This document shows positions 4,127 to 31,776 of a stretch of 64,000 nt of DNA, one piece after another; position 1 is the first letter of the stretch, and each line of letters begins with the position of its first letter. Under the pieces are notes generated by a model, which saw only the letters and a program-made list of their open reading frames with translations, did no database searches and was not told the origin of the DNA. The position numbers and the translations under genes are program-made. Location: assembly GCA_907163375.1 (NCBI GenBank), contig CAJQUW010007783.1:62001-126000 (forward strand). The letters run 5' to 3'. The DNA is from Prostheceraeus crozeri (taxonomy: Eukaryota > Platyhelminthes > Polycladida > Euryleptidae).

Positions 4127-5166
4127 CACTCTATTCACGTGAATCGATGGTTGGTTTGAACTTCTTTATCAAAGGTGCCTCACGAAGGCTAATGCTGCTG
4201 TTGTCGCTTTTATAAGCCAATATGTCAACTTGTACGTGCGTGTATTCTTGTTTTGACACTGTTGCAAATGTCTAGAAGAGGATGATGTTTCTTTGCGCTG
4301 TATGCTCTTTTACTCTGATATGCAATGTTCTCACAGTAATGCCGATATACAACTGTTCGCACTGTATTTAGGGTTCTTAAGACATGTTACACAGTTCTTG
4401 AGGCGTGTTACTGTGAAAATCACTTTTATCTTGAAGCAAATTTCTCTTTTAATTGAACATGAGACATGCTGACATTTAGTTTCGAATTTAGTTTGGTTCT
4501 TTAATGCGTTTCTCAGAGTACGTGTTTCTCAAACCTTCTTGGCGGAAAATTTTCTTTTTCTGGTAATTCACTCTTTCTGATATGAATGATAATTTCAGAT
4601 GCCACTGTCTTTGTTGTGTCTTGAATGATAATTTCAGATGCCACTGTCTTTGTTGTGTCTTTTCTTCTGTCTCAGCTTTATCTTCTTGGGTCTTCTGAAG
4701 ATCGAATGAATGTTTGTAGGAAATCGTTGACTTTTAAAGTTTCTTCAAATGCTTTAAGTGATATTTACTGCTCTTGGATTTGAGCAGTGAGATATGATAC
4801 GATCTCTTTCGTTTTTTACAGCTGCCATCTTCGTTGAGATTAACATATCTGATTTGAAATTGATGAAAATGTCTTTCTTGGCTGACTTATCATAAAGGTC
4901 GAACGAATTCAACATCATCACTTTCAGTTGTAATTGTAAGTTCAAATAGACTCAAATGATTTCCGTTTTTTTCGGAGCTCGACCTCAAATTTTATGTTTG
5001 GATTTTGAGAATTGAGAAGGTCATGGAATTCTTTTGCAGTAGATTCACCTTTTGTCAGCGCGAAGCAGTCGTCTACATATCCCTTGAAAGTCAAGATAGT
5101 ATAAAGTGATAGAAGTGCTTGTCTTTCGATTTCATCCATAAATCCAACATATGTTACAGATTTCAA
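4127..5166 (-). pseudogene. Penelope-like element remnant: RT thumb plus GIY-YIG endonuclease
   Basis: Read on the minus strand, 5166-4942 has the RT motif in FKGYVDDCFALTKG. 4945-4754 continues with SAKKDIFINFKSDM and AAVKNERDRI, which I recognise as the segment after the YVDD motif in PLE reverse transcriptases. Nearer 4350-4127 a frame encodes YIGITVRTLHIRVKEHT and ends with LREAPLIKKFKPTID, the start and end of a GIY-YIG nuclease. Order and strand fit a PLE (RT then C-terminal GIY-YIG). Frames change between the pieces and at least one in-frame stop is present, so the copy is inactive. It is bounded by inverted arms. Confidence 0.8.
4584..4661. repeat. 39-bp tandem duplication
   Basis: GAATGATAATTTCAGATGCC and the 19 bases after it occur twice in a row with period 39 and no visible difference. 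It lies inside the PLE remnant and looks like a recent local duplication. Confidence 0.85.
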
Positions 5167-5208
5167 ATTTTAAGTGTTTGTAAAATTACCTCCTTTCTGA
5201 GTAGGCGA

Positions 5209-13035: not shown

Positions 13036-13088
13036 CTTCCTGATGAAGATTGAGGCAGTTCTCTGACCTCAATTGAAACCGGTTGAAG
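13036..13088 (+). ncRNA. small type I hammerhead ribozyme-like motif, C3-G8 form
   Basis: Helix I is CTTC (13036-13039) with GAAG (13085-13088). The core CTGATGA (13040-13046) is exact. Helix II runs 13048-13055 with 13067-13074 (seven Watson-Crick pairs plus one G-T), closing an 11-base loop. GAA is at 13075-13077. Helix III is only palindromic ACCGGT (13078-13083), followed by T at position 17, so cleavage would fall between 13084 and 13085. One extra A (13047) sits before helix II. Small hammerheads with such short helix III are known from Penelope-like elements and can cleave as dimers. Structure is seen in sequence; activity is inferred. Confidence 0.65.
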
Positions 13089-13330
13089 ACCTTTTGTAAT
13101 TCATCATTGAATAGATTTGAGAAGACATTGACACTTTTCAGCTATAACAATTATTTGAATCGAATATCGATCCGTATTTGAGAAGTGTTTTTAAATAAAG
13201 ATTAAACGTATTCAGAAAAATGACGTTTACGCGCATCCAAATAAATGTGATTCTAATAATATTGATTTGCTGAAGATTTTAACTCATTGTCTATATACAT
13301 GTAGCCATGTGTTTTATATACACCACAGAG

Positions 13331-13490
13331 GTGTCCGTGGCACAGTAGTTAAGTGTTTGGCCGAGCTATCTGTTGGTCTTGAGGTCGGTTTCCGAAAGTG
13401 TCATTGGATGAAGAGCATCCCTGCTATCACAATTCTTCAGAAAAGTCTCACACTATGTCGGTATCGTCGCCGCCCACAGTGGGGTAGTAT
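13331..13490 (+). mobile_element. tRNA-derived SINE, family 1, copy 3
   Basis: GTGTCCGTGGCACAGTAGTT begins the tRNA-like head. GAGGTCGGTTTCCGAAAGTG (box B region) and CATTGGATGAAGAGCATCC follow. It is diverged from the other copies and ends about 220 bp before an Ig exon, inside the preceding intron. Confidence 0.75.
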
Positions 13491-13708
13491 TTGCACTGAA
13501 ACTTCATTTTTTCATGCACGCTGTCATTCACTTTACTACTTTCAATCAATGAAACGTGCTTGATTTCCGAAATTTGTCCGCTCCTGAGTCATAACACGGA
13601 ACTGAGAGTTCCATACCGCTCGATTTAGGTTGGGCTTATTCAACTTCAAAATTGTGAATTAAATCTGAAGTGAAACATAATTTCGTCATTTCTCCTTTTT
13701 CTCCGCAG

Positions 13709-13836
13709 ATACGAAATCCTTTCAAGCGGAACTTTGGTTATGAAATCAGCTCTTCCCGCAGATGCCGGCGTCTTCCAATGCTTTGTTGCCAATGAAATCG
13801 GAGAGGATGTGCAGACAATTTGGGTGAAAGTGAAAA
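13709..13836 (+). CDS. sdk: exon, second half of an Ig I-set domain (Sidekick-like protein)
   Basis: This internal exon encodes 42 codons plus split codons at each end. The start has a pyrimidine-rich acceptor (CTCCTTTTTCTCCGCAG) and the end a consensus donor (GTAAGT). The protein has SSGTLVM, then DAGVFQCFVANEIGE and WVKVK: the E, F and G strands of an I-set Ig domain with its second Cys. It begins with the last base of a codon and ends with the first base of the next, so it joins the exon at 51461 in frame. The FQCF.AN..GE..T pattern and the following residues recall Ig4-Ig5 of Sidekick, a homophilic synaptic and junctional adhesion protein. Ig identity is near certain; Sidekick itself is about 60% likely, with other multi-Ig adhesion receptors as the alternative. 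The first half of this domain was not found upstream. Confidence 0.88.
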
Positions 13837-13839
13837 GTA

Positions 13840-15160
13840 AGTAATGTACTATTTCGACACTTAGTAAATGGATCTTTATTCTGTATCGAGGAAATGGGAA
13901 ATTGATAAAGGAAGTGATTTCTCATTGACACTGATAAGATTACTTTGAATTTGACAATATCTACACATGCATAGACTTCTCTCTAATCTCATTCATTCAG
14001 GAGTCACTAAGACGCCTTACAAAAGTCCTCACGATGGTTGCTCATTGAACTATCGTTTACAGTGCATTGAAGTGCACTGTCGAATTGTCAGTAGCTTCTC
14101 AGCCAAACCTCTTGGCAGTTTTTTTTGTGATGGTTGAAGTTTGCTTGAGGGGAATTAGGAAATCCAAGAACATTTCATTTAATAACCTGATAAGTTTATT
14201 GTCACGCTCCTTTCTCCTCATTGAGCACTTATCAGCTTTGATTAGTTGATGTAGTGAGTGAATGAGGTGAAATTGTAGGATGAGTCGTCTGTTGACGGTC
14301 AAGCAAGAGTCTAGAATGCAAACTGAGTCTGCTTGGGCTGAGATAAATTCCGGAAGGTGCGCGGAAATTCGATCTTCTGTCGAGTTGTTCGGCGAAGTCC
14401 GCAGATAATGAAGCTGACGAACTTTGACAAGCATATCGAATGAATTTTCATGTATTGATCTTCTTGATATGTCTATTGTCATCGATAAACGGATGGTCGA
14501 GTTGGTGAGGTCACATGCCAGATGGGCATGTGATTTGATAGGTCTTGGTTCGAAACTGATTGGTGTCCCTAGCGTACCTCGATATTGTGAGAGTTTAGTC
14601 CTATTGAATTTGAGTTTTGCTGAGGTCAGTTCATCTCTCTAGATTAAACTCCCCAGTGGAGTTGACTCAGATTACGTTTAATGGTGATGCTCGACTCAGT
14701 GGCCTTATATTAGAGTGGTGACCCACTGTCTCGGAATCTATCTAGTCAAATGTAGGTCAGGTGTAACCAAATATGCCATTATAGGCACTCTCATATAGCC
14801 ATAATCGGTGCACTTCAAGATATTGCTTAGCATCCATGCAGTGGTGGTACAGTGGGAGTTAAGCAAGCGCGCTGCACCTGCTCTGTAAGCTTTCAATGCA
14901 TTCAGCAATAAACCGGTTTAATGTCTAACTGAGATGAAAGCAACCTTATGTACATAATGGAGTAGAATTGAGCAATTGACCTTGATGTTTACTTTTGATA
15001 AGAGTTATAGAATCCTCTGTTACTTTGAATGGCCAAGAGAAGTTTTTTGAACAGCGAGTTGTTTGAAATTCATATATAGTAAGCAATTCAAACAGTTATT
15101 TTGAGCAGTACACAAATTTTGTTATTTTTAACTATGCAATATTATAATTATCATTTTATT
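13840..15160. other. intronic, nothing recognised
   Basis: An open frame of 127 codons on the minus strand (14099-14482) has no recognisable motif and no splice or promoter context. I do not call it a gene. Confidence 0.5.
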
Positions 15161-15565
15161 ATCAAATAAATCTATTGACAAACATGTTTAAATGCTCGAA
15201 ACGTACCATCATCAGTGAACAGCAAAAGTGATACATGTGCAAAGACTTAAATACATCCGAAAGTTCACTCAAAAAGAGCGCGAGCAATAATAACAATAGC
15301 AAAGAAATATTGCTAGAACTGATGAATTGCCTTACTGATAAAATCTTATAAGAACCAAAATGTGAAGCTCATGAATACTCAGACGCAGATTGATCAATTG
15401 TTGTTATTTTAAATTTTTTTTCTTTGCTTTTGTTATTATTACTCGCGCTCCTTTTGAATGAACTTTCGGATGTATTTAAGTCTTTGCACATGTATCACTT
15501 TTGCTGTTCACTGATGATGGTACGTTTCGAGCATTTAAACATGTTTGTCGATAGATTTATTTGAT
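15161..15565. repeat. fold-back repeat, about 147-bp arms
   Basis: 15161-15307 is nearly the perfect reverse complement of 15418-15565. The arm includes CGAAACGTACCATCATCAGT and AAGACTTAAATACATCCG. The spacer of about 110 bp is unrelated. CGAAACG next to a CATCATCAG segment recalls PLE terminal regions, so a pair of inverted PLE terminal repeats is a possible origin, but no coding remnant is left. Confidence 0.85.
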
Positions 15566-17213
15566 CATGCAATCTCTGCGGCAATGTTCTTTATTCTCAA
15601 TTATCATTATATTCACATGTATATGTTTTAATTGTATTTTCTCCATATTTTTTGATGAATTTAGTATTCTGCTTCATCATACCTATATTTCTTTATTTTC
15701 CCTTCATCATGACTCTTCCTCTTCCCTCAAAGTTTGATTTCAAAAGAATCAGTGACATTTCCCCTTCATTGTCAGTCAGGTCAAATGCAAATAATATTAT
15801 TGTTGATGCTTACTGGATAAATCTGTGTTAAAATGTGTTAAGATTTTACAAGTCATGTGAATTGGAGAAGAAAAGCAGAGTAAATATTGAGTTACAAAGC
15901 TTTACTTTTCAGAAAGTTTCTGCTGTTAGAGTATTGCAGAATTCTTGTACGTTTTTTTTGAAAAAGTGCTCAAATATCTTTAAAAATTAAATGCATGTAT
16001 AAATCTGTATCATGTCTTGAAATGGACTGGGTATACGAGTATATAGTCCAAACATCGGTGATATTTCATCTTTTCACTATCAGTCTCTTGCATTTGAATT
16101 TTCTTTTATCAATGCGTAACGGGTTTGATAACCACAGAGTGACCATCAATCGAAGTGTTCGTCATTTTATAAATGCAGGCGTCTTGTTCGATTATCAATT
16201 GATATGAATAGTATTCAATTTCCTTACAGAATGATTGTTGTTTTTTTTAAAAAAAGACATGATGTCGATGTCACTGTTGCAATATCAGTTAGTGTTCTAC
16301 AGCGGCATCATCAAGTAATCGAAATCGTGAAAGCTAGAATTAAGATGGACAAAGATAATCAGAACTTTTCGTTTCATTCAGGTGATGTCGAATTTCAGAG
16401 ATTGGCATTTCATAAAGATTGATCGAGTCAGCATGGTATCGATAAGAGCTGAACTTTCTCGAACGATATTTTCACAATACAAAATGTTAATTCAAATTTC
16501 ACGTGTGTCGGAGAATGTAATTTTCGGATTTTTACGTGAAGCCTGGTTGTATGTCAGATAATTTATCAGAAAAAAATCATTGCAGAATCCAATTAACTTC
16601 AGATGCCCTTGTGAGAAGACAGTTCCAACTTGAGGAATCGACCAGAGAAGAGTTGGTAACACTTCATTTGACGATTGAGTGTTTTACTACATTAGAGGAC
16701 GATACTTCTGATTGATGCGATTTTGATACTGCTAGTGCAGACATCTTCCACCCAGAGAATTGTTTCACTTTGACTGTGTGTATGTACGGTTTCTAGTGGG
16801 AGACACAGGATGCTGTAGTTACTTTTACTTACCATGATATCACTTGCTTCAACGACATCATGAGGACTCATTTGCATGTTAATAGAAAGAATTATACTTT
16901 CGATTTGAAAAATATTTTTTTCCATTTCTCATTCATTGACTTTTGGTGATGTTGGTGAGAAAAACCTTGGGCTGATGAATTATATTCAATCTGAAAGCTT
17001 TTGTAATACTTTCCCATTGTGATTTAGAGTAGTATTGATTCGGGAACCTCACATAATTATCTAAGACAGGAATCTGACCCACTTGACCTCAAATTTCATG
17101 TCGGTTATGTGAGCTTTTAAATTCAGCAAGCATAATCTCACGCTCTGTGGAACTGTGAGATAAATAATTAGATATGAGTTGAAAAAGTCATTTTATTTCA
17201 ATGTTTAAAAACT
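15566..17213. other. intronic, nothing recognised
   Basis: AT-rich, with short open frames only. Confidence 0.5.
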
Positions 17214-17640
17214 ATCGATGCCTTTCGATGTCCTTCGGACAAACACGGTAAAAGGCAAAACAGGACATGAAATTCAAAATTACTGAAATGTCAGAAATGC
17301 AAGGAAATTGAGACATAGAATTTAAAGAAATGTGAAGATAGCATAGCACAATAAGGCAAAAAGTTTCATGAGTAGGAGATACTACAATATCTCAATATGA
17401 TATTACAATATATTACAGGTATTACAACAAAATGGAAAAGGGACTCAAAACTCACTGCCTAGGAATGACATTGTTCCGAGCATCACTCAGAGTTATTTTT
17501 TAATCTAGTTGTTCTTCCAGTTATCTTCACATTCCCTAAACTCTATGTCTCAATTTTCTTATATTTCAGTGATTTTGAATTTCATATCCTGTTTGCCTTT
17601 TATCGTGAAGGTTTTCCGAAGGACATCGAAATGCATCGAT
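17214..17640. repeat. fold-back repeat, about 120-bp diverged arms
   Basis: 17214-17340 and 17522-17640 are reverse complements with several mismatches and small indels. Shared landmarks are ATCGATGC.TTTCGATGTCC at the outside and AAATTGAGACATAGA inside. The arms carry a small hairpin (TCC GAA GGA flanked by GAA and a short palindrome) that only loosely resembles a hammerhead. No coding sequence lies inside. Confidence 0.8.
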
Positions 17641-18820
17641 ATTGAAAACTGAATATTTTCGATCGGCTAATTTGCTCTGTCCGTTATTTTTAAACATAAT
17701 CAAATATGTAATTATAATGATAACAAACTGAATGATATCGTCATTCCAATGTGACAACAATAGGCTGATTAATTTCTAATTTCTTTATCACCGAAAAATC
17801 TGGTTTATTTGAAATATAGCGATGCATTTCGACACAACCAATCTCAAAGTCAGAAGTTTTGCTATCAAAAAATTATAAGCCAAATAAAGAGTCATAGAAC
17901 CACAGTCCCTTATCGTCTCTCGTGACAAAGTTCCTGCTTTTTCTTACCTATAACGTACAAATTTCACTCATCGGAATACCACTGTTGCAAAACCTGCTCA
18001 TCAGAAACTTCAGTCTGTGGCAAATCCCTCTTTTCTGAAGGTCAGTTGGTAGAAATCTAATGCATCTTCGAGTCTGCATTCACCACCTTCATCGATATTG
18101 ATATCATTTACAATCATATTCCACTTTTCTCAAGAATGTTATGAATGAAATCCAAATTTTGATCATTTTACGAAGTTTAGAACTAATGATTATTTTGTTG
18201 ATTAATTATTGCCTACATTTTTTATGAGCACCTTCGCTTCATTATCTTTAAATTATTCGGAAAGTAGCCTTATATCGGAATATGACCCGTGATGCAAATG
18301 TTGGTTTTGGCCTGTGGATTGTGCTTGCGCAAGTCTTGGAATTCAGGTTGATTATCGGGGCGCAAGTTGCTGACAGAATTGGTTGGGTGAGTGATGTGAT
18401 GATGTAATTGACAACCTTTTGTGTCTGAAGCTGCTGAAATTATAGTTTGGTGAAGAATTGTGATATTCTAATTGATTTGCGATTCATCAGGTCTCAAAGT
18501 AATCAAGTTGATTAGAAATTCAGCTTTTAGTTTGATGAACTGTCGTCTAATTTGATCCTACTGTCAAGGCATATCTGCTGTTGATGAGGAACAAGTGCTT
18601 TATGGACAAATTTTCGTCTGACAAGTTGCAAATTTCAACTAAGTATCACTCAAAATATATTATATTCAGCCGTAATTTTATGTAATATATTTGCTCCCAA
18701 AGTTCTATTTTTAGTGCTTAACCGTTCCTCATCTTTCTTCTACACATTTTAGCATAAGAGGATGTCCTCTTAATTTAAACTCAAATTGAAGCTTCACATT
18801 TTAAATGTCTTTTTTAAGAT
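17641..18820. other. intronic, nothing recognised
   Basis: No exon or repeat recognised up to the start of the 32-bp array. Confidence 0.5.
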
Positions 18821-20689
18821 AAAGACGACCTATGAGATTGAGGACTCGGGATCAAGACGACTAATGAGATTGAGGGACTCACTATCCAGACGACTTATGA
18901 GATTGAGGACTCGGGATCAAGACGACCTATGAGATTGAGGACTCGGGATCAAGACGACCTATGAGATTGAGGACTCGGGATCAAGACGACTTATGAGATT
19001 GATGACTCGGAATCAAGACGACCTATGAGATTGAGGACTCGGGATCAAGACGACTTATGAGATTGATGACTCGGAATCAAGACGATCTATGAGATTGAGG
19101 ACTCGGGATCAGGATGACTTATGAGATTGAGGACTCGGGATCAAGACGACCTATGAGATTGAGGACTCGGAATCAAGACGACTTATGAGATTGAGGACTC
19201 GGAATCAAGACGACTTATGAGATTGAGGACTCGGGATCAGGATGACTTATGAGATTGAGGACTCGGGATCAGGATGACTTATGAGATTGAGGACTCGGGA
19301 TCAGGATGACTTATGAGATTGAGGACTCGGGATCAGGATGACTTATGAGATTGAGGACTCGGGTATCAGGATGACTTATGAGATTGAGGACTCGGGATCA
19401 GGATGACTTATGAGATTGAGGACTCGGGATCAAGACGACTTATGAGATTGAGGACTCGGGATCAAGACGACTTATGAGATTGAGGACTCGGGATCAGGAT
19501 GACTTATGAGATTGAGGACTCGGGATCAAGACGACCTATGAGATTGAGGACTCGGGATCAAGACGACCTATGAGATTGAGGACTCGGGATCAAGACGACC
19601 TATGAGATTGAGGACTCGGGATCAGGATGACTTATGAGATTGAGGACTCGGGATCAGGATGACTTATGAGATTGAGGACTCGGGATCAGGATGACTTATG
19701 AGATTGAGGACTCGGGATCAAGACGACCTATGAGATTGAGGACTCGGGATCAGGATGACTTATGAGATTGAGGACTCGGGATCAAGACGACTTATGAGAT
19801 TGAGGACTCGGGATCAGGATGACTTATGAGATTGAGGACTCGGGATCAGGATGACTTATGAGATTGAGGACTCGGGATCAGGATGACTTATGAGATTGAG
19901 GACTCGGGATCAAGACGACCTATGAGATTGAGGACTCGGGATCAGGATGACTTATGAGATTGAGGACTCGGGATCAGGATGACTTATGAGATTGAGGACT
20001 CGGGATCAAGACGACTAATGAGATTGAGGACTCGGGATCAGGATGACCTATGAGATTGAGGACTCGGGATCAGGATGACTTATGAGATTGAGGACTCGGG
20101 ATCAAGACGACTAATGAGATTGAGGGACTCACTATCCAGACGACTTATGAGATTGAGGACTCGGGATCAAGACGACCTATGAGATTGAGGACTCGGGATC
20201 AAGACGACCTATGAGATTGAGGACTCGGGATCAAGACGACTTATGAGATTGATGACTCGGAATCAAGACGACCTATGAGATTGAGGACTCGGGATCAAGA
20301 CGACTTATGAGATTGAGGACTCGGGATCAAGACGACCTATGAGATTGAGGACTCGGGATCAAGACGACTTATGAGATTGAGGACTCGGGATCAGGATGAC
20401 TTATGAGATTGAGGACTCGGGATCAAGACGACCTATGAGATTGAGGACTCGGGATCAGGATGACTTATGAGATTGAGGACTCGGGATCAAGACGACCTAT
20501 GAGATTGAGGACTCGGGATCAGGATGACTTATGAGATTGAGGACTCGGGATCAGGATGACTTATGAGATTGAGGACTCGGGATCAGGATGACTTATGAGA
20601 TTGAGGACTCGGGATCAAGACGACTTATGAGATTGAGGACTCGGAATCAAGACGACTTATGAGATTGAGGACTCGGGATCAAGACAACG
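18821..20689. repeat. 32-bp minisatellite, about 58 units
   Basis: The unit contains GACTTATGAGATTGAGGACT followed by CGGGATCA.GA. Two main unit types alternate: CAAGACGAC and CAGGATGAC, with T/C and T/A variants before TATGAG. A rare 33-bp unit with GAGGGACTCACTATCCAG occurs at 18851 and again at 20101. The second block repeats at least the next six units in the same order. The distance of 1250 bp equals 39 units plus two single-base insertions, both visible. Decayed unit-like sequence follows to about 20800. There are no spacers, so this is not CRISPR-like. Confidence 0.97.
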
Positions 20690-21641
20690 TGTAAAGTTGA
20701 TGACCCGACATGCAGACGGAACACGACATTCATGACCCAATATTCACCGTGGGAGTGCATGGAGTCTATGTGCCGTGGATTGATGACTCAAATTCCAATG
20801 TAACCTTGTTGCTGATGACGGAATCATCTGACCGGATTTCTCACTCGCTGTCTAATAGCTCAGTTTATGGGATGATATTACATGATTGATCACTGCAATT
20901 GAGTTACAGACGTAATTACCGGTGGGTCGCCATAAACACCAAAACGCCCTTCACAACGGCGACATAGGTTTCATTTGAGTTGAAGGACAATCTGTCTCAA
21001 TCTAACGCGTTCCTGTGCTTTCTCCAAAGGTTGCTTAGCGAGAGGCTGTGTAATGCATTGGGCAGATGAAGATGCTCAGCAGTGATGAACCTTTCGTCGT
21101 CTGAAGATCGATGTGGTAGCTGCTATTGTACTGACGATAATTAGTACAGTGGAAAGTTTGCTTGAATTTCATGTCTGATGAAGATGTTCTTCCTAGTCGG
21201 TATCTCCTTTGATATTGATTATTATTAGTCGTCAATTTCAGGTGCAAAAATATATATTGATAAGAGGGGAAGGTGTAGGAGAAATACAACAGGTTTTCAA
21301 GTATGAATTATTCAGTTATTGAATAATCAATTAATTATCTCTATTGTCAATAGATTTTGCTTTCCTTATCGATTCACAAATGATGTTGAAGTCGTAATCG
21401 TTAGATTACCGGGTCAAGGTGAAATATGACTCAATTGAGTTTACAGTGAAGAGAAGAAAATGTGAAGAGTTGCGATGTCATCAAGAGGTGGGGGTCTTCG
21501 CACACACACAGAGGTGTTATTTCTTGTGAGGCGGTGGTGCATCCGAGGCGGAATTCGAACCATGTATGAGCCACGACGGAACCATAGAGATGAAAAATCT
21601 CATTAAATTTGTAATTGTGCTGAAACACGCTTGATCACCTA
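20690..21641. other. intronic, mostly nothing recognised
   Basis: The first 100 bp look like decayed 32-bp units (GTTGATGACCCGACATGCAG). The remainder has no recognised element. Confidence 0.45.
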
Positions 21642-22082
21642 GTCCGGCAGCCAGAGAGAGTTTCTGCAGGGAACGAGGCCGAAAGTGAGATTTTCACAGA
21701 ATGATGCACACCATATGCCTACTACGAATCGTCACGTCTGTCGAGTTCTAGTGAGTTCCTCTTCTTGTCAGACAGAATCAAAGAAAAACACATGTAAATC
21801 CAATGGGACGCAGATTGAAGTTTTTGGCTAAAATGAATTTTGCTATGTTTTCTCTGATTAAACGAAAAGTACTAAGCCCAGAGTCATAATTTTTGGCATG
21901 GAATGTCTTCAAGTCATTTCCTTTCATGTTCATGCACTTCTGTCTATAAAGCTAAACACAGTTTTTTTGCGAACCTCTTAATGTCGGCAAACTCAAGCAT
22001 TTTTAGCAACTTTATCCACATTCAACCACATTCTCATATACATTTCCGATTAGATGCATGATAACAGCACATGCACATCATA

Positions 22083-23876
22083 CAGACCCGGCAAAAAGTT
22101 TAGCAACACCCCTGATTTTGCAAACAACAGAATGTAGCGTTTGCTAAAAAGTATTTTAATAATGTTTATGCGTTCAAATTACAATGCAGAAGTATCAAGA
22201 AGCTTACCAACACTGAGAATATGCGATTGTCGAAAGCGAACGACTAATGAGTGTCACATCAATACTTTGTGTGATATCCTTTTGCTGCCAAACATGCTTG
22301 AATACGTTGGGGCATTGACTCAACCAGTTTTCTGCAATAGGCAGGAGTGATCTCGGTGACCCACAAGCGTTTCACCTGTTCCGCTAGAGTACTATGAGAG
22401 GATATATGGCACCTCTGAAGCCTGTCCTTCAATGTTCTCCAGCAATTTTATATGCAATTGAGATCTGTTGAATTACCGGGCCAGCCTTCTAGGATCTGAA
22501 AGTTCTGTTGGGCAATCCAATTCGACACCAGCCTTGCCTTATGCGCCGGTGCTCATCCTGCTGCAAAATCCTTGTTCCTCGAATATTCATGAAAGGCTCT
22601 ACCTTCTGCTTCAATATTTCTAAGTAATTGATCGCCTTAACAGTTTCTGTCTTGCCAAAGACATGAAGTCCACATCTGCCTCTTGCAGAAACTCCTCCCC
22701 AAATCATTAGCTTTGGTGCAGATCGCACAGTGAATGATGTGTAAGATGAACTGAATCGTTCTCCTTTTGGTCTGCGAACATGGGGCTGGTAGCTACGGTG
22801 CTGCGACACAATCGTCTCATCCGCAAACATGACTTCACCCCATTCTTCAGCGCTCATGTTCTGGTAACGCTTGCAAAAGGCTAGCCTGTCACGTACGTTT
22901 TTCGCTGATAGGAGAGGCTTTTTAGCTGGCTTGTATGACTTCAAACCATATTTGTTTCGAAGACGGCTTCTGATAGTTGTCACTGATGAAACATGTGCAC
23001 ATGGAGGCAGATGTGCTTGAATTTCTGTCGCTGCTGCAAAAGGGTTTGCCTTGGAATAACGATGAATGAATCTGTCCGTTTGTGGTGAAGTAGCTGTAGG
23101 CCTACCGGAGCGGCGTTCACTGGCAAAAGATTTGGTATTTTTGATTCGCTTTAAAGTTTGAGACACGCAGGAAGTGGAGACGAATAACTGGGTCGAAATT
23201 TGACGCAAACTAAATCCATTGGAGTGCAATACCAAAATTTGAGCACGTTTTTCAGTCGACAAGTCTGGCTTTTTGCCCATTTTCGGGGAGCACAGAAAGG
23301 ACAGTGACGATGAGATAAGTCACACAAGTATTCGAATGATCAAGGCTATCTCTTAACAGTTTGCTATATATGATGCTGAGCTAAAAATAGAACTGTGGGA
23401 ATCCCTGTGTTCTTAATTTATGTTTGTGCGTGTGTGGTGTGAGCGTTTTTTGGATTAAATCTTGGTATTTCAAACCTGGAGAAGAACACGATAATTTGCC
23501 TCTCACAAGACCAGCCCAATAATGCACCAGACATGCTAGACTAGATTGGTGGACTATCTGGAAATGTACCTTAGATCATCTTATGCCAGTCCAGTGAAAC
23601 ACGCTTACATGCATTGGCGGTCAAGATGTTCTCTACTGTCATATTGCAGAACTCTCTTTGACTCAAAGACCTATCGTCCTCAAGTCTGTTTTACCAGAAA
23701 TGATACAAGAGCAAAATTTAATGCGATATCTAGTCAATGACAACTGAGGGTCAGTAAATTGTCTACACGTCTACAAGGTATTTTGATGTAACAACATGTT
23801 CGAAATGCTTTCAGGTATTGATGCGATCTGACTGTCTTCAAAAACTGGGGTGTTGCTAAACTTTTTGCCGGGTCTG
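22083..23876 (-). mobile_element. Tc1-like DNA transposon
   Basis: The terminal inverted repeats start CAGACCCGGCAAAAAGTTTA and are nearly identical at both ends over about 30 bp. TA flanks both sides (22081-22082 and 23877-23878), as in Tc1/mariner target duplications. The total length of 1794 bp is typical for a full-length Tc1 element. It carries a single transposase reading frame on the minus strand, now broken. It sits exactly between the loop and the right arm of the fold-back element around it. Confidence 0.93.
22258..23280 (-). pseudogene. Tc1-like transposase, inactivated
   Basis: The start MGKKPDLSTEKRAQILVLHS and the following SLRQISTQLFVS form the first helix-turn-helix. TIRSRLRNKYGLKSYK belongs to the second DNA-binding half. 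The catalytic domain begins at VMFADET (first Asp), continues with LMIWGGVSARG, and reaches the second Asp in ILQQDE (22556-22558). Right after that Asp a one-base loss shifts the frame. Reading on in the next frame gives the expected WPGNSTDLNCI, followed by a stop codon (22448-22450) exactly where the catalytic Glu should be, then a normal C-terminus to the stop at 22258. The enzyme has the usual length of about 340 codons but two disabling lesions. Confidence 0.92.
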
Positions 23877-24152
23877 TAGACATGAAGACATTCCATGCCA
23901 AAAATTATGACTCTAGACCTAGTACTTTTTGCTTAATCAGAGAAAACATAGCAAAATTCATTTTAGCCAAAAACTGCAATCTGCGTCCCATTGGATTTAC
24001 ATGTGTTTTTCTTTGATTCTGTCTGACAAGAAGAGGAACTCACTAGAACTCGGCAGACGTGCCGATTCGTAGTAGGCATAGGGTGTACAACATTCTGTGA
24101 AAGTCTCATTTTCGGCCTCGTTCCCTGCAGAAACTCGCTCTGGCTGCCGGAC

Positions 24153-25650
24153 TATGTGGAGGTAAGCGATAAAATGCTTAGTAATGCAACACTGCGTTAT
24201 TTTACTAAAAGTCATTCAACCCGATTGTCTGTCATCAGCATGGAACATACTGATGTTTCATGATTGAAAATATTGTTTCACCGATCCGACTAGCGTAGCA
24301 GTAAATCTTCTTAGACGATTCAGTGAACTCTGAATGGTTGTATTGGTCTGGTTCCATTATTCGATCTTGTCAAAGATTAATCTTTAGTGTTCCACAATTG
24401 CTATACACTGTATTCCATAATCGTGAAGATTCCAAATTGTCGTCTGTGGCTACCAGTATCAAACTTTTTTAAAAATCAAGTTGTAGTACGCATAAATATG
24501 TTCCTGGAAATCTCAAATTTTCACGCTTTAGCATTACTACTTTCCACCCTGCTCTTGGTCGATGCCAACTAGTTAACAAGATGCAGCGTTGGGACTTTGG
24601 GTGCCCCTCCAGTCGTTTGCCGATGATATCTTCGGAGGTTCAATCACACAAACTGGAGAATTCAAGGCTAAGTTATAAATCTCTGTACCGCGGAGGTCTT
24701 CATCATCATTTAATTGATATATTCCATTATTCATGGAGTGATGCTTCAATATTCTCTGGTCAGTCTGGTCTCAATGAATGACAAAAGTTAGAACGTAGGA
24801 TTTTGTTTCGGGTATGATCTATCACTGTTGATACAGAAGTACATGTATGAAACACGGAATTCAAATGTACAACCAACACAGAGCCATACTTTGGAATGTT
24901 GAAGAATTGCACTCGTAGTTCTGTTTTAGTTCTATTTTGTGCGCTTTTCACGTGAGCAGGTTGATGGATGGAGTACGTCCGTTAGATGACGGAATTAGAA
25001 CTCTGGAAATTATGATTTGTGATAGAATAATTAATAGCATGATGAGATAAGAAGAAATTAATTGAAAAATGATCCATGAATTATGAATGCACAGTTATTA
25101 CGCAACGAAAGCAATTCCTTGCAGAGTCGATGTTGTGAGATGCAGTTGATTAATATTGAGAGCATTGTTGAATGTCCTTGTTATGTGAAGCTTGATGTAT
25201 ACTATACAGGATGTCTGATTATGGAGTTGCCAGAAGTTCGCGAACCGCGTCTTGAAAGTGCTCAAATGCAAATTTTTGTAGTCAATGGTTGATTGACGAT
25301 ATCACCCAAGTGCAAAACTGTTCAGTAAGATATTGGCAGAATCTAAAGAATTTAATCGAAGACGTGAATTTGAAACAAAATAAATGTTCATGAACTTTAT
25401 ATGGATAGAAATAAATTACGCATCTATTGCTAATACGCCATTACAGTATATTAATGTACAAAGTTTGAAAATTCGTTCCTATCATGACGATAGCTACGGA
25501 TTGTAGCTGAAATATGTCGCTGCTGAAAAATATATTATATATATATATATATAATAATATAATAATAAATGTTTTTATTTTCCACCTAATTCTGATGTCT
25601 ACATTATGAATGTATACAAATGTGATTGATTCCAATAGATTTACTTCACT
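24153..25650. other. intronic, nothing recognised
   Basis: AT-rich. It ends in a TA-rich stretch at 25531-25560 just before the first PLE hammerhead-like motif. Confidence 0.5.
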
Positions 25651-25692
25651 TCCCATGAGTAGCCTCCCGTGAAGAGGCGAAACCGGTTGGGA
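25651..25692 (+). ncRNA. small hammerhead-like ribozyme, 5' side of PLE, A3-U8 variant
   Basis: Helix I is TCCC (25651-25654) with GGGA (25689-25692). The core reads ATGAGTA (25655-25661) instead of CTGATGA: position 3 is A and position 8 is T, still complementary. Helix II GCCTC (25662-25666) pairs fully with GAGGC (25674-25678) around a 7-base loop. GAA is at 25679-25681. Palindromic ACCGGT (25682-25687) forms a minimal helix III, then T17, so predicted cleavage is after 25688. It lies 200 bp upstream of a PLE coding remnant, with a second copy downstream, the position of PLE terminal repeats. Confidence 0.7.
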
Positions 25693-25762
25693 TAGTTATT
25701 CATGACTTTTTTCTGAGTTTTTGTTTACTTATTTAATGCCATTTTGATACCTGTCTTCATTT

Positions 25763-25765
<3 letters not shown>

Positions 25766-25799
<34 letters not shown>
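25766..25799. repeat. (TA)n microsatellite
   Basis: About 17 TA units, lying 75 bp after the first hammerhead-like motif. A similar tract follows the second motif at 26827, so both may derive from the same terminal-repeat sequence. Confidence 0.95.
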
Positions 25800-25802
<3 letters not shown>

Positions 25803-25854
25803 AGAACTTTTATGAAACATTACTTATATCCTCATAAGACGCATAAGTCGAATT

Positions 25855-26640
25855 GTATCTGATATCGAGATCCGAAAAGTTCGTCATAACGAAATGAAAG
25901 TAAGATTAAGTCAACTTGGATATCCAGAAAAATTAATAGATGATGCTATTTCAAAGTGTTTGCTAGAGATAAATAAAGAAACACCTACAAGTAATGCAGT
26001 ATCAAATGATGAAAAGATGATACCATACATTGAAACATATAATCCCAACAACCCTAATATTTATCAGACCATAATATCTCCAGTTCTTTCGACCTCGAAG
26101 TTAACAAAAACATTTTCTAACTATCGATTAAGACCAACCTAGAGACAACCACCAGCACTCCTACAAATAATTCAGAAAAACAATCGAAAAACAATTACTG
26201 GAGTGAAAAAATGTGGCGACGCAAGCTCTTCGTGCTGCGATTATATAATTGAAGGTATCAAATTTACATATAAAGAAGGAAACATAACTAAAGAGTTTAA
26301 AATAATAAGTAACATGAACTGTTCATCTAACAATTTAATTTATGTCATATAATGTGGAGGTTGTAGTGCCCGTCATGTTGGACAAACGGGAGATGCATTA
26401 AGATCAAGAGTTCGAACACATAGACAGCAAATTCGGGAACTGAAATATAGAACATTGAAAGTTAGTGATCATATATCTACATGTGCTAAAAAATATCTAT
26501 CCTCCTTTCAAGATCATGCCAATTCTACAGCTATCTTCCAATGTTAATAGATCTCTACGGGAACAAAAAGAAAACGATGCATGAAGGTATTGAATTCTAC
26601 CTTAAACCAGGATATCGGATCCATATAAGGTTATGTCATG
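25855..26640 (+). pseudogene. Penelope-like element remnant (RT C-terminus and GIY-YIG)
   Basis: An open stretch at 25894-26142 encodes LSQLGYPEKLIDDAISKCLL and MIPYIETYNPNNPNIYQTI, typical of the end of PLE reverse transcriptases. It then hits a stop. The following sequence (about 26190-26500) encodes a Cys-rich linker (KKCGDASSSCCDYIIEG), then NNLIYVI, an in-frame stop (26349-26351), and CGGCSARHVGQTGDALRSRV: a GIY-YIG nuclease whose YIGQT is changed to HVGQT. It continues into VSDHISTCAKK. It is 5'-truncated and carries stops, so inactive. Hammerhead-like motifs flank it on both sides in the same orientation, consistent with direct terminal repeats. Confidence 0.85.
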
Positions 26641-26720
26641 ATATACATGTTTTATTTAAATGTCTCAGGCTTTTGATTTGAATGTACTTCTACTGTCTGT
26701 AAAGAAAATAGATGTCATTC

Positions 26721-26761
26721 CGCCCATGAATAGCTTGGAAACAAGTGAAACCGGTTGGGCG
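26721..26761 (+). ncRNA. small hammerhead-like ribozyme, 3' side of PLE, A3-U8 variant
   Basis: Helix I is CGCCC (26721-26725) with GGGCG (26757-26761). The core ATGAATA (26726-26732) has A at position 3 and T at 8. Helix II GCTTG pairs with CAAGT (26742-26746, the last pair G-T) around a GAAA tetraloop. GAA is at 26747-26749. Palindromic ACCGGT (26750-26755) precedes T17, so predicted cleavage is after 26756. Both helices differ in sequence from the copy at 25651 but stay paired, so selection on structure, at least in the ancestors, is likely. Confidence 0.7.
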
Positions 26762-26825
26762 TAATTATTTGTTTTTATTTAAAACTTTATACGTGAGGGT
26801 GGGTCAGGGTGTTTCAGTTTTGTAT

Positions 26826-26826
<1 letters not shown>

Positions 26827-26881
<55 letters not shown>
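26827..26881. repeat. (TA)n microsatellite
   Basis: About 27 TA units, 65 bp downstream of the second hammerhead-like motif. Confidence 0.97.
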
Positions 26882-26884
<3 letters not shown>

Positions 26885-27483
26885 TCTACAACACTTTATA
26901 GAATCGGCTCTTTCCAACTTAATAAATGAATCGTACAAAGTATTGCGTCCAATGCTTCCGTATATTGACAGATTGCCTCAACTCGACGGTGTTGGGATTA
27001 TTGTCGACATACAATGAATGATGTCACGAATCGTTCAATGTGATGACACAACTACGTAAAGCTCGCAATATGAGCCTTCATTGTCTGCTTCTTCTTTATA
27101 TATTCAATCATTTTCCATCATTCTTATAAATTTTAGCAACAGAGACTTTCGATTATTCTCCAAAAACTATTGGATTTAGGATTCAGTGCACATTAAATGG
27201 ATAATAAAGTCACGGCAGGAGATGACAGGTTTTCCTAAGTATTTTTCTTAAAATGTATCGAATTATTATTGAAAACGAAGGATTATTTCTGCAGTACTCT
27301 AGTTCTGCAAATTCATCTTTTATGATGCAACTTGCATTGTCATGTTACATATGCTATTCGTAAATGAATAGATTCACATTGCCTAAATCGTGCATCAATT
27401 TATACAATCTCAGATTTAAACCAATTCTATAAGCTTGGAATTGACTCAAACTCGCTGAATTATTCAGGGTTGTGTTTTTTCCG

Positions 27484-27933
27484 ATTTATCGGGAAGTCCT
27501 GATTCTGGGTTTATTTCGGTCATTTTTGAGACAAGGCAGATTATAGAGGGGGGGGGTGGAGGGTCGGGTGGGACTTTATATATTGCTTGATTGTCTTAGA
27601 CTGTAACACAGCCGTTCCTTTTAATTTTTCAAATGTATCCCTAGTTTTATACCACTTCATTTTCAGTAATATCAATCATATTTCAGTCTCTGATGGGTTT
27701 CGCCTAAATATACACGTAGATTACATGGGCTGCATACATTACTTAGCGTGTTGCTTTTGTTTTCATTTTTGTGTCACTTCATTTCTTGCTTATAATCGAA
27801 CTAACCAGGCAATATGTGAATGTCCCAAACTTATGGTTCTATTGTTTATGTAGTAATGACTGTTCATGCTGAACCCCCTTCAAAATTTAGCTTCCTGATT
27901 TTTTTCTCGTTCGGTCAATCACACCCCTGATTA
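27484..27933. repeat. unclassified dispersed repeat, copy 1
   Basis: It shares long, well-matched blocks with 37045-37398: TTTCGGTCATTTTTGAGA, GCCTAAATATACA, GTGTCACTTCATTTCTTGCT, AGGCAATATGTGAATGTCCC and CCCCCTTCAAAA. The middle (about 27544-27690) is unrelated to the second copy. There are no coding motifs or clear terminal repeats, so the class is unknown. Confidence 0.8.
27548..27572 (+). other. potential G-quadruplex motif
   Basis: Four G-runs (nine Gs, then GGG, GGG, GGG) separated by TGGA, TC and T, a perfect match to the usual G3+N1-7 pattern. It sits in the part of the dispersed repeat that is not shared with the copy at 37 kb. Confidence 0.7.
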
Positions 27934-30900
27934 TTAAATGAAATTGTTTCGACAACATCTTCCTTCAAAATTGACCTTAATTGACGATATCGGATACAAC
28001 GTCGTCACTTTTTCAATGTTATTTTTCACGACTAACAAAGTTTATTGATATCTAATGATACAAACCTTTGTTGAAAACCTAGAACAGAATTACAATATTA
28101 CAGATAGTCCGGTTCGGTCAGGTCTTTAGACGGCGGGAGGCATGAGCTGATACTGAAGGCGTTGTCTCTCTGGACTGCAAAACATCATGTTTATCCTAAC
28201 AATGAAATCATTGCTTTCTGGTTGCAGACGCATTGTGTTGCGGAAAGTTATCATTTTGCGACATGCACAAGGTGTTGTTCCGAACTTCAACAGTGAACAA
28301 ACATTACGAAACATTTCATAATGCAAAGTCACTGTCAAAGATAAAGGCGGCTTGCAGTTTGATGAAATTGTGTCACAGCCATTCCGATTTCCAGCTCTTG
28401 GTTAATTATCATCCCACAAGTTTACAGTTTGTGATTATATTTCACTTTATTGCAAATATTTGGCAGGAAATTAGAATTCATTTCAACAGACTGCAAATTT
28501 GACTAATCTTTGTTTCCGTTGCGGTAATGAGTTAGAAATCGCAGTCCTATCATTTCGGGAAACGGTTTTCCTGCGAGTCTGGAGCTATGTTATAGTCTTC
28601 AGTTGCCGCATCTCTCAGTTTGTGCATTGTTTTACAATAAAGTCTCCAGCTTCGTGGGCAGTGGTGGGCAATCAAGTTGGGATAGAGGGCCGAGAGAGCT
28701 CGCCGGCCACCAATTTTAAAAGGCAGAAATAGGTTTGTTGAAAATTCCTTTGATGAGCATCTTTGAGGGTAATTTTAAAGACTACTATACATAGTGGTAG
28801 TACATGACAATTGTATTTGTAAATGCATACAGGGCATTGTACACATAGCTGTTATCTTTTAGGGAACTGTGTTTTACATCCTAAAATCTGCATGAATAAT
28901 AGAATATGAATAGACCAAACCAGTTGCGGAAGGTTTTTTGCGAAATTAAATGGTCATATGACCTCATTGGTAAAATAATAACACCACCATATTTAATCGA
29001 AAAATGGCAGTCTATGGTCTAAATGACGGTCTATAGTAGCCTACCTCTATCCGCCTCCATGCCACACAATGTAAAATGACATAGATAAAAACTGGTTAAG
29101 TTACACGCCCCTAAGTGTACATAGGCCTACTTCACCCAAACATAAACGTCTTTCGAAAGTCACGCATAGGCTCCCCTGATACTCCTGCGATATAAATAAT
29201 TGGTGCAATATGCTTATAAATCTAGATAACATAATATGCAGAAAGAATACTTGAAAGAAAAGCTGGCTTATGAATATCACATATCCTCATGCTCCTTCAT
29301 GCGTAGATACTATATGTATTTATAGGCTAATTGCAACTCTGTTTATTACGTGGTGAAACATGTTCAACAAGGTATCGAACGCCATGTGACTCAGCACTCA
29401 TTAGGAGTTGTTGAAATGTCTACCAGGGGGCAAGGGTTATCTGAGTGCATCACTAATATTGAGAGCGCTTTCCGAATATGCGTGCGACATTACTCACGCA
29501 TTTGTGCTACATTCGTGGCCAGTTAACATAGACCATCCGTAAGACGATTGAAGCCACTGGACGCTGAAGGCCTGCCAGCAGAGAACTTCGTTGGACTTAC
29601 ATCAAATATGCCTGAAACATAGGGAAGTACTGTCTCAAGTTGTTCCACTGGATATGCTCCTTTAAGGCCCATCGTCGGCAGTTTGTGGACAGCTGCTTGC
29701 TAAGTCTGCGTATGATTTGTGGTGGCATCGTCTAGTTAATTCATGCTCTGAAGTTAATGCATTTATTGAAGTTTCAAATTTTATAATATATTTATAAGTA
29801 TGCATATATTTAAGATAAAGTTTTTTAATGATCAAAGTTTTAGCCATTCACGTCATTGCTCCCTCGCAACAACGAACTCTGCAAAGTAAAGTAGCAGTAT
29901 TAAGCAAGGGTAGGAAAATCGCCAAGTTATGTCTTCAAACATTTCACGTGTTCACTGTAGTTAAAACACTCGAACATCTGCCGAGGCGGCATTCAGGAGG
30001 CATGTCAAGCTCAAACAGTACAAACTGATTTCATTTCAAAAAATCCGCTTTATTGCTCGAGTTGGCACAAAATCCTCCTTTTCCCAGTTGACATTGTCAT
30101 CAGTCTTATCTATTGCTGTCTAGTCAGTTTACTATTCGATTCATTTACGTTTTCCTCATCCAACTCTTATATTATTACAGTGTATGCGGATAATTCAGAT
30201 TACATACTCAAGAATTTTGATGCGCAGCATATTTTACAACGTTAAGATGCATACAGTTAACAGCAATACTTACGTATTAACAGAAGTTATAGTTTATCAG
30301 GTGTAACAAGTTGTCAGAGAACAACTACATGCCAATCAAAGTTGCAAAAAATGAAAGAAGATACTCCAATATTTGAAATTCCTTACATTTTCCAATACTT
30401 AACTTGATACCACATCTCAGATTCCATAAAAATCATATCTAGCTGCACGTGTTTACAAGATTTTAAAGTGCATAAAGCATGAAAGATGTTGAATACAACT
30501 TATACAATGACGATATAGGAGGAAATTTTTTTGTTTGAATTGGAAACATTTATAATTCGATGCGAAGTTGTAAAAACATTGAGCATTGTCAGAATTCTAA
30601 TATTTGAGCATTTGGTGATGTGTTTGAGGATGCTGAATAATGTAGTTTTTGGGTGCGTGGATGTACTCGTGGATCCAGACCCATCCCAGGTGAAATTTGA
30701 ATGACATATGAGATGTCTGAAGCTGTTGATTTTCATATTACAATTCACTGTTCTTTGATCACGTTTTATTAAGATTGAGAAGTGTTCCGACTCCATTTCA
30801 TGCGCAATTACTAAATGAGTCAGTAATGAGCATCACATGCGACGATCTAATGACTGACACGTATTTTGTGACAGAATAGTTGTTATAGAAATACTCGCAC

Positions 30901-31196
30901 TAAGATCTGGAAATGACTGTAGTTAGAATCTTGGCCATTTCGAATTACTAAAAGAAGACGACGCAACCACATGACACAGATAATTCGGTCAATGTAAAGG
31001 AATGAAGTGCAATAGAGGGCGGATCGCGAACTCAACTGGAATAACAAGTCTCAGATTCGTATGTAGTTCAAGAGAGGGAGAGACAGAGATCGCGTTTTCT
31101 TCTTAACATCGTAGAGAGTCATGACTGCTTGAGGTTTGACTTCTTTGGAACATAAATTTCAATATGTAATGGCTTGAGGCGGGAGGCGCATAATGA
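27934..31196. other. intronic, nothing recognised
   Basis: 3.2 kb of AT-rich sequence with short open frames only. No motif or repeat identified. Confidence 0.45.
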
Positions 31197-31232
31197 ATAA
31201 AAGGAAAACGTCACAAATCTCTCCCGAAAAGT

Positions 31233-31472
31233 TTGCGGTATAACGAACATAAAAATAGCATCATCAAGCGTGATTGTCATAGCGCCTTGAGCGATCATAT
31301 AAAATTTTACAAGCCGTGTACCAACATAGATAGCTTCAATATCAATTTCTTAAAGTGTGTGCATGATCCGATTGAGACAAGTTTGATGGAATCTCGTTTG
31401 ATCGATTTTTGTAAGCCAGAATTGAACAGGCGTCACGAGGGTGTTGTTGCACCTACTGTTAGAATCATTTAG
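31233..31472 (+). pseudogene. PLE GIY-YIG endonuclease, C-terminal fragment
   Basis: The frame reads RYNEHKNSIIK, SALSDHIKFYKPC, DSFNINFLKCV, then ETSLMESRLIDFCKPELNRR. This is the C-terminal part of a PLE-type GIY-YIG nuclease, with the metal-binding Glu (ESRLI) and the final KPELN. The catalytic N-terminal YIG part and the RT are missing. It ends directly before the hammerhead-like motif at 31476, so the element's 3' end is preserved. Confidence 0.8.
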
Positions 31473-31475
31473 TAA

Positions 31476-31511
31476 GGCAGTGACCAAGCGTCTGGACGCG
31501 AAACGTTTGCC
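31476..31511 (+). ncRNA. small hammerhead-like motif after PLE, G3-C8 variant
   Basis: Helix I is GGCA (31476-31479) with TGCC (31508-31511). The core GTGACCA (31480-31486) has G at position 3 and C at 8, complementary to each other. One extra A (31487) precedes helix II (GCGT with ACGC, closing a short CTGG loop). GAA is at 31500-31502. Palindromic ACGT (31503-31506) precedes T17, so predicted cleavage is after 31507. It lies immediately 3' of the PLE nuclease fragment. Confidence is lower than for the pair at 25.6-26.8 kb because only one copy of this variant is well formed. Confidence 0.55.
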
Positions 31512-31776
31512 GATTTTACCTGTATTATATTTTTACTTGAACCTTTGTGTCTATTCGGCATTATATATTTTTCGGGAGAGATTTGTGACGTTTTCCTTTT
31601 ATAAATTTCAACATGAAGTGCAAACCGACGTGATCTCGTTCTCGAACTTGGTGGACTGACTCTGTCACTCTCGGGGATCGACCACACGACGAAAAGATCA
31701 CGAGGTCAAGCCCTTTGCCATTTTACCACGGAGACAACACCACGCAAAGCTCCAATTTACGAATACTGTCATGTGC

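Follow-up and report, generated by a model that had tools for sequence, protein, structure and literature searches.

The hammerhead core is a textbook example of invariant catalytic letters, and the locus analyzed here raises the question of whether the pair formed by core positions 3 and 8 has to be C3-G8 in nature. The window, a 64-kb stretch of DNA from the polyclad flatworm Prostheceraeus crozeri, was searched on both strands with a descriptor (N3-UGA-N7-N8-A9, an optional extra A, GAA, an A...U helix III and H17) that demanded at least 4 bp in helix II and at least 3 bp in helix I and left positions 3 and 8 unconstrained. Exactly four matches were found, at 13040, 25655, 26726 and 31480, compared with a mean of 0.1 matches per strand in first-order shuffles of one strand of the window (n = 20). 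An earlier note on this DNA had described four motifs whose positions 3 and 8 form three different Watson-Crick pairs; its coordinates and letters were correct, and our independent descriptor recovers exactly these four. All four motifs carry a Watson-Crick pair at 3-8, which the descriptor did not demand. A fifth candidate at 42290 looks like a worn copy and is too worn to be classified.

All four motifs lie on the forward strand and can adopt the type I hammerhead fold, with helix I open and three helices around the core. The motif at 13036..13088 has C3-G8 (13040/13045), an extra A at 13047, helix I CUUC/GAAG (4 bp), a helix II of 8 bp, helix III ACCGGU and predicted cleavage after U17 at 13084. 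Two motifs have A3-U8: that at 25651..25692 (25655/25660), with helix I UCCC/GGGA (4 bp), helix II GCCUC/GAGGC (5 bp), helix III ACCGGU and predicted cleavage after 25688, and that at 26721..26761 (26726/26731), with helix I CGCCC/GGGCG (5 bp), helix II GCUUG/CAAGU (5 bp), helix III ACCGGU and predicted cleavage after 26756. The motif at 31476..31511 has G3-C8 (31480/31485), an extra A at 31487, helix I GGCA/UGCC (4 bp), helix II GCGU/ACGC (4 bp), helix III ACGU and predicted cleavage after 31507. Helix III is thus palindromic throughout, as ACCGGU in three motifs and ACGU in one, and a predicted UU cleavage site is common to all four. U4 G5 A6, A9, G12 A13 A14, A15.1-U16.1 and H17 are also present in all four, as the descriptor demanded. 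Only the 13040 motif agrees with the strict consensus CUGANGA...GAAA (C3, G8); the motifs at 25655, 26726 and 31480 do not.

By their sequence and surroundings, the window motifs belong to the minimal type I hammerheads that Penelope-like retroelements carry at their 3' ends. Remnants of a GIY-YIG endonuclease lie directly upstream of the 26726 and 31480 motifs. The first (25879..26544, forward strand) contains in-frame stops and belongs to the Penelope-like element whose 3' end carries the 26726 motif; pieces of it are 85-94% identical to three genome copies (L148, L149 and L159). The second (31290..31469, forward strand) is the C-terminal part of an endonuclease frame whose end lies shortly before the G3-C8 motif, and it is 93-95% identical to L221 and L224, the former of which has a longer GIY-YIG frame with a YIGKT motif. 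Pfam gave no match above cut-off for these two worn pieces, so they were assigned by their motifs and by comparison with better-preserved relatives. The 31480 element also has an inverted copy of its 3' tail at its 5' end (31192..31230, reverse strand; 39 nt, 95% complementary to the tail at 31569..31607 on the forward strand). The 25655 motif lies in the remaining 3' end of a truncated Penelope-like element (25569..25770, forward strand) that is flanked by (TA)n tracts and is 99% identical over 202 nt to L158; its association with GIY-YIG comes through the relatives L158, in which the endonuclease lies 360 nt upstream of the motif, and L163. No endonuclease was seen in the surroundings of the 13040 motif, which has relatives in L238 (88%, 138 nt) and L215 (80%, 158 nt). 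Across the genome, a same-strand GIY-YIG was found 308-504 nt upstream of the motif in 33 of 71 distinct copies. A 64-aa GIY-YIG piece had no relative among viral contigs.

Pattern searches of the 2.05-Gb genome, which demanded most of the hammerhead core letters and were each set against a reversed-pattern control, returned 657 places for the overall pattern versus 5 in the control. With A at position 3, there were 334 places versus 0, and position 8 was U in 97 of 100 among the matches listed. With U at position 3, 260 places were found versus 2 (A8 in 88 of 100 among the matches listed), and with G at position 3, the extra A and ACGUUUG, 380 versus 3 (C8 in 94 of 100 among the matches listed). 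The pattern with A, C or U at position 3, the extra A and ACCGGUUG occurred at 62 places versus 1, and that with G at position 3, the extra A and GAAACCGGTTG at 3 places versus 11, which is not clearly above background. A pattern without the extra A and with GAAACGTTTG (291 places versus 193) was rejected, as it mostly hit an unrelated repeat. Among the matches listed whose helix II reached 4 bp, and counting copies rather than events, A-U and U-A made up 86 and 69 of 201 without the extra A; with it, there were 77 G-C, 30 C-G, 15 U-A and 1 A-U of 152. C3-G8 was found mainly with the extra A.

The extra A that the earlier note had seen in the motifs starting at 13036 and 31476 is genuine and is shared by entire families of the genome. 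We placed it after A9 because covariation between positions 3 and 8 is seen in this register only; the alternative register would give A8 in all 152 listed rows. U3 is the loose class among the listed rows with the extra A (A8 15, U8 7, G8 6 and C8 4).

To compare families rather than copies, we tabulated 26 families in which both helix I and helix II are present, from partly hand-picked loci. This genome-wide covariation test had been set beforehand by the earlier note. Positions 3 and 8 were Watson-Crick in 23 of the 26 families, and all four forms (C-G, G-C, A-U and U-A) occurred in multi-copy families. When the position-8 letters were dealt anew among the families, a procedure that ignores kinship, the mean was 7.1 and none of 20,000 shuffles was as high. 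The stricter family clustering (23/26) was kept, and a looser one that merged families with different 3-8 letters (18/18) was discarded. In the same families, helix I pairs 2.1 to 2.4 showed a Watson-Crick excess like that of 3-8, and the control pairs 3-7 and 7-8 were at chance. These results suggest that pairing of positions 3 and 8 matters more than their letters.

The idea that any complementary 3-8 pair is found holds for all four Watson-Crick forms, but two multi-copy sets, G3-A8 and U3-U8, are not paired in that way. G3-A8, a large clade, was seen in 44 of 49 listed rows with G at position 3 and no extra A, and in 31 of 32 when helix II had at least 4 bp. The U3-U8 sets are smaller, with 8 rows without and 7 with the extra A among the matches listed. 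In principle the main G3-A8 family could be read as G3-C8 if position 7 were missing and an extra A were present. This reading is unlikely, as sister copies within that clade show G or A in place of the C. The G3-A8 elements were mobile: two of their copies, on separate contigs (L194 and L195), are 98.3% alike. Tentatively, and with rather less than even odds, the 3-8 letters of Penelope-like hammerheads may be freely exchangeable: all Watson-Crick pairs and even G-A and U-U might support catalysis in nature, perhaps aided by the element's protein, so that C3 and G8 would not be invariant and G-A and U-U would be living one-step intermediates.

None of the four window motifs was detected by the Rfam hammerhead families, either at the gathering cut-off or at E up to 5, and a search of 20 related loci with E as high as 10 gave no match either. 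The earlier note had expected standard CUGANGA searches to miss the A-U and G-C forms, but the 3-8 letters are not all that hides these motifs: eight of the 20 missed loci are C3-G8, so the missing helix III also plays a part.

The best explanation for the motif anatomy, the 3-8 covariation and the element context, all obtained directly, is that these are type I hammerheads at the 3' ends of Penelope-like elements that would act as dimers and in which any Watson-Crick 3-8 pair would serve, lineages differing in the pair they use (probability about 0.8). The element transcript would cut itself after U17, just past the palindrome of helix III. Neither ACCGGU nor ACGU can close a hairpin, so two RNA copies would probably base-pair at this palindrome and be cleaved as a dimer. 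The core pair 3-8 would set nucleotide 8 in place. On the current view, the proton that this nucleotide donates comes from its 2'-hydroxyl rather than its base, and if so any Watson-Crick pair at 3-8 could serve. Separate element lineages would have fixed C-G, G-C, A-U or U-A, with selection presumably acting on the pairing.

Chance assembly of so short a motif in 64 kb is the least probable alternative. Chance does produce such matches: by the descriptor, the 132 pattern matches in viral contigs (10, 8 and 114) were of this kind, and a slightly looser descriptor applied to these 132 loci (1.15 Mb) gave 12 matches, several of them duplicates. However, 7 of the 12 lacked a 3-8 pair and none ended in GAA-ACCGGU or GAA-ACGU, and chance is refuted by the excess over the shuffles and reversed-pattern controls. 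The motifs without C3-G8 could instead be decayed, inactive copies, and many copies are indeed broken elsewhere, as with the stops in the window GIY-YIG and the worn 42290 copy. Decay, however, would yield single changes, whereas one-sided changes at 3-8 are a minority genome-wide and double changes dominate multi-copy families whose helices I and II are intact; many identical strings among the matches listed also suggest that the youngest A-U, U-A and G-C copies keep their letters. We therefore regard decay as highly improbable. Only slightly better is the prospect that lineages fixed their 3-8 letters by chance and that the covariation reflects shared ancestry. The copies do cluster in few families, and an independent-pairs test on the GIY-YIG tree had only 2 or 3 usable pairs. 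Against this stand the family counts, with 3-7 and 7-8 at chance, and the tree itself, in which A-U and U-A are each present in both main groups and need at least three and at least two changes, respectively, on supported branches.

A stronger rival, though still an unlikely one, is that the hairpin is a landmark for the element protein, marking the start of reverse transcription or an endonuclease binding site, with 3-8 as part of the fold and cleavage incidental or protein-driven. The mobility of G3-A8 elements fits this, as does PAc, a Penelope-like element of Anolis carolinensis, whose RNA needs added protein for cleavage and, with a dead ribozyme, can still be inserted in vitro, according to the sections of PMC11167929 on these assays. 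A mere hairpin would need none of the hammerhead core letters, and their recurrence at hundreds of places, despite differing helices I and II, weighs against the landmark, less than it seems to, as the genome patterns demanded most of them.

Four Watson-Crick pairs at 3-8, in hundreds of copies within one genome, amount to a natural double-mutant experiment on the 2'-hydroxyl view of nucleotide 8, in which the nucleotide needs only a pair to hold it in place. With the G3-A8 and U3-U8 sets one can test directly how such a pair switches letters and keeps its function and mobility. The data also suggest that catalogues based on CUGANGA undercount the hammerheads of animal genomes.

Natural U3-A8 hammerheads and Penelope hammerheads were known already. 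Minimal hammerhead variants in Penelope-like retroelements were reportedly described by Cervera and De la Pena in 2014 and likewise by Lunse, Weinberg and Breaker in 2017. As far as reviews describe them, Penelope hammerheads are of type I with a near-absent, palindromic helix III and a proposed dimer action. The window motifs share with them the type I layout, the diminished palindromic helix III and the link to Penelope-like elements; set against these review descriptions, the window and genome motifs have A-U, U-A and G-C beside C-G. One natural covariant, U3-A8, is already on record: the relevant section of Perreault et al. (2011; PMC3088659) names several natural examples with 3-8 covariation. 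That section names only U3-A8, whereas here four Watson-Crick pairs occur at high copy in one genome, together with G-A and U-U. In the literature consulted on hammerhead core letters and Penelope hammerheads, neither A3-U8 nor G3-C8 is reported as a natural form; coverage was partial, and absence from print is not claimed. Animal retrozymes, as outlined in PMC7229834, likewise place type I hammerheads in animal retroelements, but they are short tandem non-coding repeats, whereas the motifs here end protein-coding elements. PAc, in the parts of PMC11167929 that concern its ribozyme, is also a hammerhead inside a GIY-YIG Penelope-like element; its natural form is C3-G8 and protein-dependent, its other 3-8 forms are engineered, and its authors cite earlier self-cleavage of a Penelope-type hammerhead at 3 to 25 mM Mg2+. 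In PAc, cleavage is lost with either C3G or G8C alone and partly returns when both are combined; in its 3-8 pair this laboratory double mutant matches the natural 31480 motif.

A descriptor holding the hammerhead requirements without the 3-8 pair was run on both strands of the window and returned four matches, exactly the four motifs located in an earlier note, while shuffled sequence gave a mean of 0.1 matches (20 shuffles, one strand). Core positions 3 and 8 are Watson-Crick in 4/4 motifs: C3-G8 at 13040/13045 (helix I CUUC/GAAG), A3-U8 at 25655/25660 (UCCC/GGGA) and 26726/26731 (CGCCC/GGGCG), and G3-C8 at 31480/31485 (GGCA/UGCC), which agrees with the three kinds of pair read there before. 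Helices I and II, the palindrome ACCGGU or ACGU, and U at position 17 were consistent in each motif. A worn motif with a damaged core was also seen at 42290-42320, with helix I GGCA/UGCC and the GAAACGUUU end as in the 31480 motif.

The window motifs are the 3′ ends of Penelope-like retroelements, a name that comes from the GIY-YIG link and the literature. A worn GIY-YIG stretch, CGGCSARHVGQTGDALRSRVRTHR, starts 374 nt ahead of the 26726 motif, and a GIY-YIG reading frame ends ahead of the 31480 motif. The latter copy has relatives elsewhere in the genome (L221 and L224); the frame of L221 extends further upstream and shows a YIGKT motif. The 39-nt tail of the 31480 copy is present inverted at the element's other end (31192-31230 vs 31569-31607). 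The 25655 motif lies inside a 202-nt truncated element end with 99% identity to locus L158, in which GIY-YIG lies 360 nt upstream of its own motif. L238 and L215 are relatives of the 13040 motif in a dispersed family, for which a coding part was looked for and not found.

Patterns open at positions 3 and 8 were searched in the genome (2.05 Gb, 14,165 contigs) with the reversed pattern as control. With GAAACCGGTTG and without the extra A before helix II, 657 places were found vs 5 in the control: 334 vs 0 for N3=A, 260 vs 2 for N3=U, 49 vs 3 for N3=G and 15 vs 0 for N3=C. With the extra A, GAAACCGGTTG gave 62 places vs 1 for N3=A/C/U, and N3=G gave only 3 vs 11 genome-wide. With GAAACGTTTG and the extra A, N3=G gave 380 places vs 3 and N3=A/C/U 147 vs 39. 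The N3=A/C/U GAAACGTTTG set without the extra A (291 places vs 193) is largely background and was left out of the 3-by-8 tables.

In these tables, built from the matches listed (at most the first 100 per search), the 264 rows without the extra A had at position 8, among the matches listed, A1 C1 G1 U97 for N3=A and A88 C2 G1 U9 for N3=U; the other rows had A12 C0 G2 U1 for N3=C and A44 C0 G2 U3 for N3=G. When helix II had at least 4 bp, the matches listed without the extra A (n=201) comprised A-U 86, U-A 69, G-A 31, U-U 8 and 7 others, and those with it (n=152) G-C 77, C-G 30, U-A 15, A-U 1 and 29 others, chiefly U3 with U8 (7), G8 (6) or C8 (4). The tables with and without the extra A together demonstrate that each of the four Watson-Crick pairs occurs in multi-copy families.

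To collect families, 93 motifs were taken from 68 search-cut loci, 39 fetched loci and the window, and sorted into families sharing the letters at 3 and 8, the helix III and the string of helix II; 3 bp in helix I and a score of 3 for helix II were required. This gave 26 families (U-A 8, A-U 7, C-G 5, G-C 3, and one each of G-A, U-U and G-U), of which the G-U family is an altered copy of an A-U family and some others are near kin. Positions 3 and 8 were Watson-Crick in 23/26 families, against a shuffle mean of 7.1 (0/20,000 as high; the shuffles ignore relatedness). Helix I pairs 2.1 to 2.4 covaried likewise, and no comparable covariation was found in these families at 2.5, 3-7 or 7-8. On the best GIY-YIG tree (40 copies, 122 columns), the 3-8 labels require 7 changes, with at least three for A-U and at least two for U-A on supported branches; the window's two A-U motifs belong to different families and to different main groups (L158 with L163 vs the window copy). 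A tree-aware pairs test had very few pairs available. The extra A tracks strong pairs: C-G or G-C was found in 7/8 Watson-Crick families with it vs 1/15 without it (Fisher p 0.00025, which is optimistic as families share ancestry), possibly reflecting structural coupling or shared ancestry. The weak A-U and U-A families mostly lack it.

The reading of 3-8 as an exchangeable pair is supported by the covariation and by all four pairs being multi-copy, but the G3-A8 and U3-U8 sets are not Watson-Crick. The G3-A8 elements form a clade (support 98/95) in which position 8 is constantly A while position 7 varies between C, G and A. Two of them on different contigs, L194 and L195, share 98.3% identity, and L195 and L196 carry stretches of 284 codons free of stops, which end 190 nt ahead of the motif. 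The U3-U8 family and the window's A-U family fall together on the tree, at a support of 89/88 that is not starred. Either non-Watson-Crick pairs are tolerated in these sets or spread does not require the ribozyme; in vitro data reported for PAc, the Penelope-like element of Anolis carolinensis, permit spread without it (PMC11167929). A hammerhead-like U3-G8 motif was also seen in L217 and similar strings, ~100 nt behind a likely LINE reverse transcriptase C-terminus (read by eye).

Motifs were frequently observed in outward-facing inverted pairs in the genome. Among the 100 N3=G extra-A GAAACGTTTG matches listed, a hand count gave 14 same-contig pairs within 10 kb, all minus then plus; the N3=A matches listed without the extra A also included a few pairs in other orientations. 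Loci L241-L243 consist almost entirely of the element end duplicated in inverted orientation, with arms of 95-148 nt that are 95-98% complementary (47-191 and 213-357 in L241), and this set includes a 42-nt perfect inverted duplication. Such pairing agrees with the reported cutting and extension of both DNA strands by a Penelope-like enzyme (PMC11167929). Elsewhere, the window holds a minus-strand reverse transcriptase fragment with YVDD (4945-5169) that by eye resembles those of Penelope-like elements and scores below cut-off for Pfam RVT_1, a minus-strand Tc1/mariner-type transposase fragment (22489-23280; HTH_Tnp_Tc3_2) and a long minus-strand hairpin (15236-15490) that is probably an inverted-repeat transposon. 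The match of this hairpin to MIR8562 (65.7 bits, E 1.8e-9) did not reach the gathering score. Two tandem arrays were found, one of 58 copies of a 32-bp unit (18818-20685) and one of 75 copies of a 48-bp unit (52608-56242) with open frames on both strands and nothing above cut-off in Pfam.

Nucleotides 3 and 8 are described as paired in the full-length hammerhead (PMC3088659, PMC2837043), and the general acid may be the 2′-hydroxyl of nucleotide 8 (PMC6155905); because of both, exchange of the pair would be expected to be tolerated. The helix III palindrome predicts cleavage as dimers, a mode of action already proposed for the hammerheads of Penelope-like elements. Within the limits given above, the sequences support a new set of core variants, well populated and predicted to cleave, of a known kind of ribozyme in a known kind of retroelement. 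In PAc, C3G or G8C alone is reported to kill cleavage and the double change to rescue it partly (PMC11167929), and U3-A8 was reported in nature in 2011 (PMC3088659); the natural A3-U8 and G3-C8 families go beyond both the PAc double mutant and the natural U3-A8.
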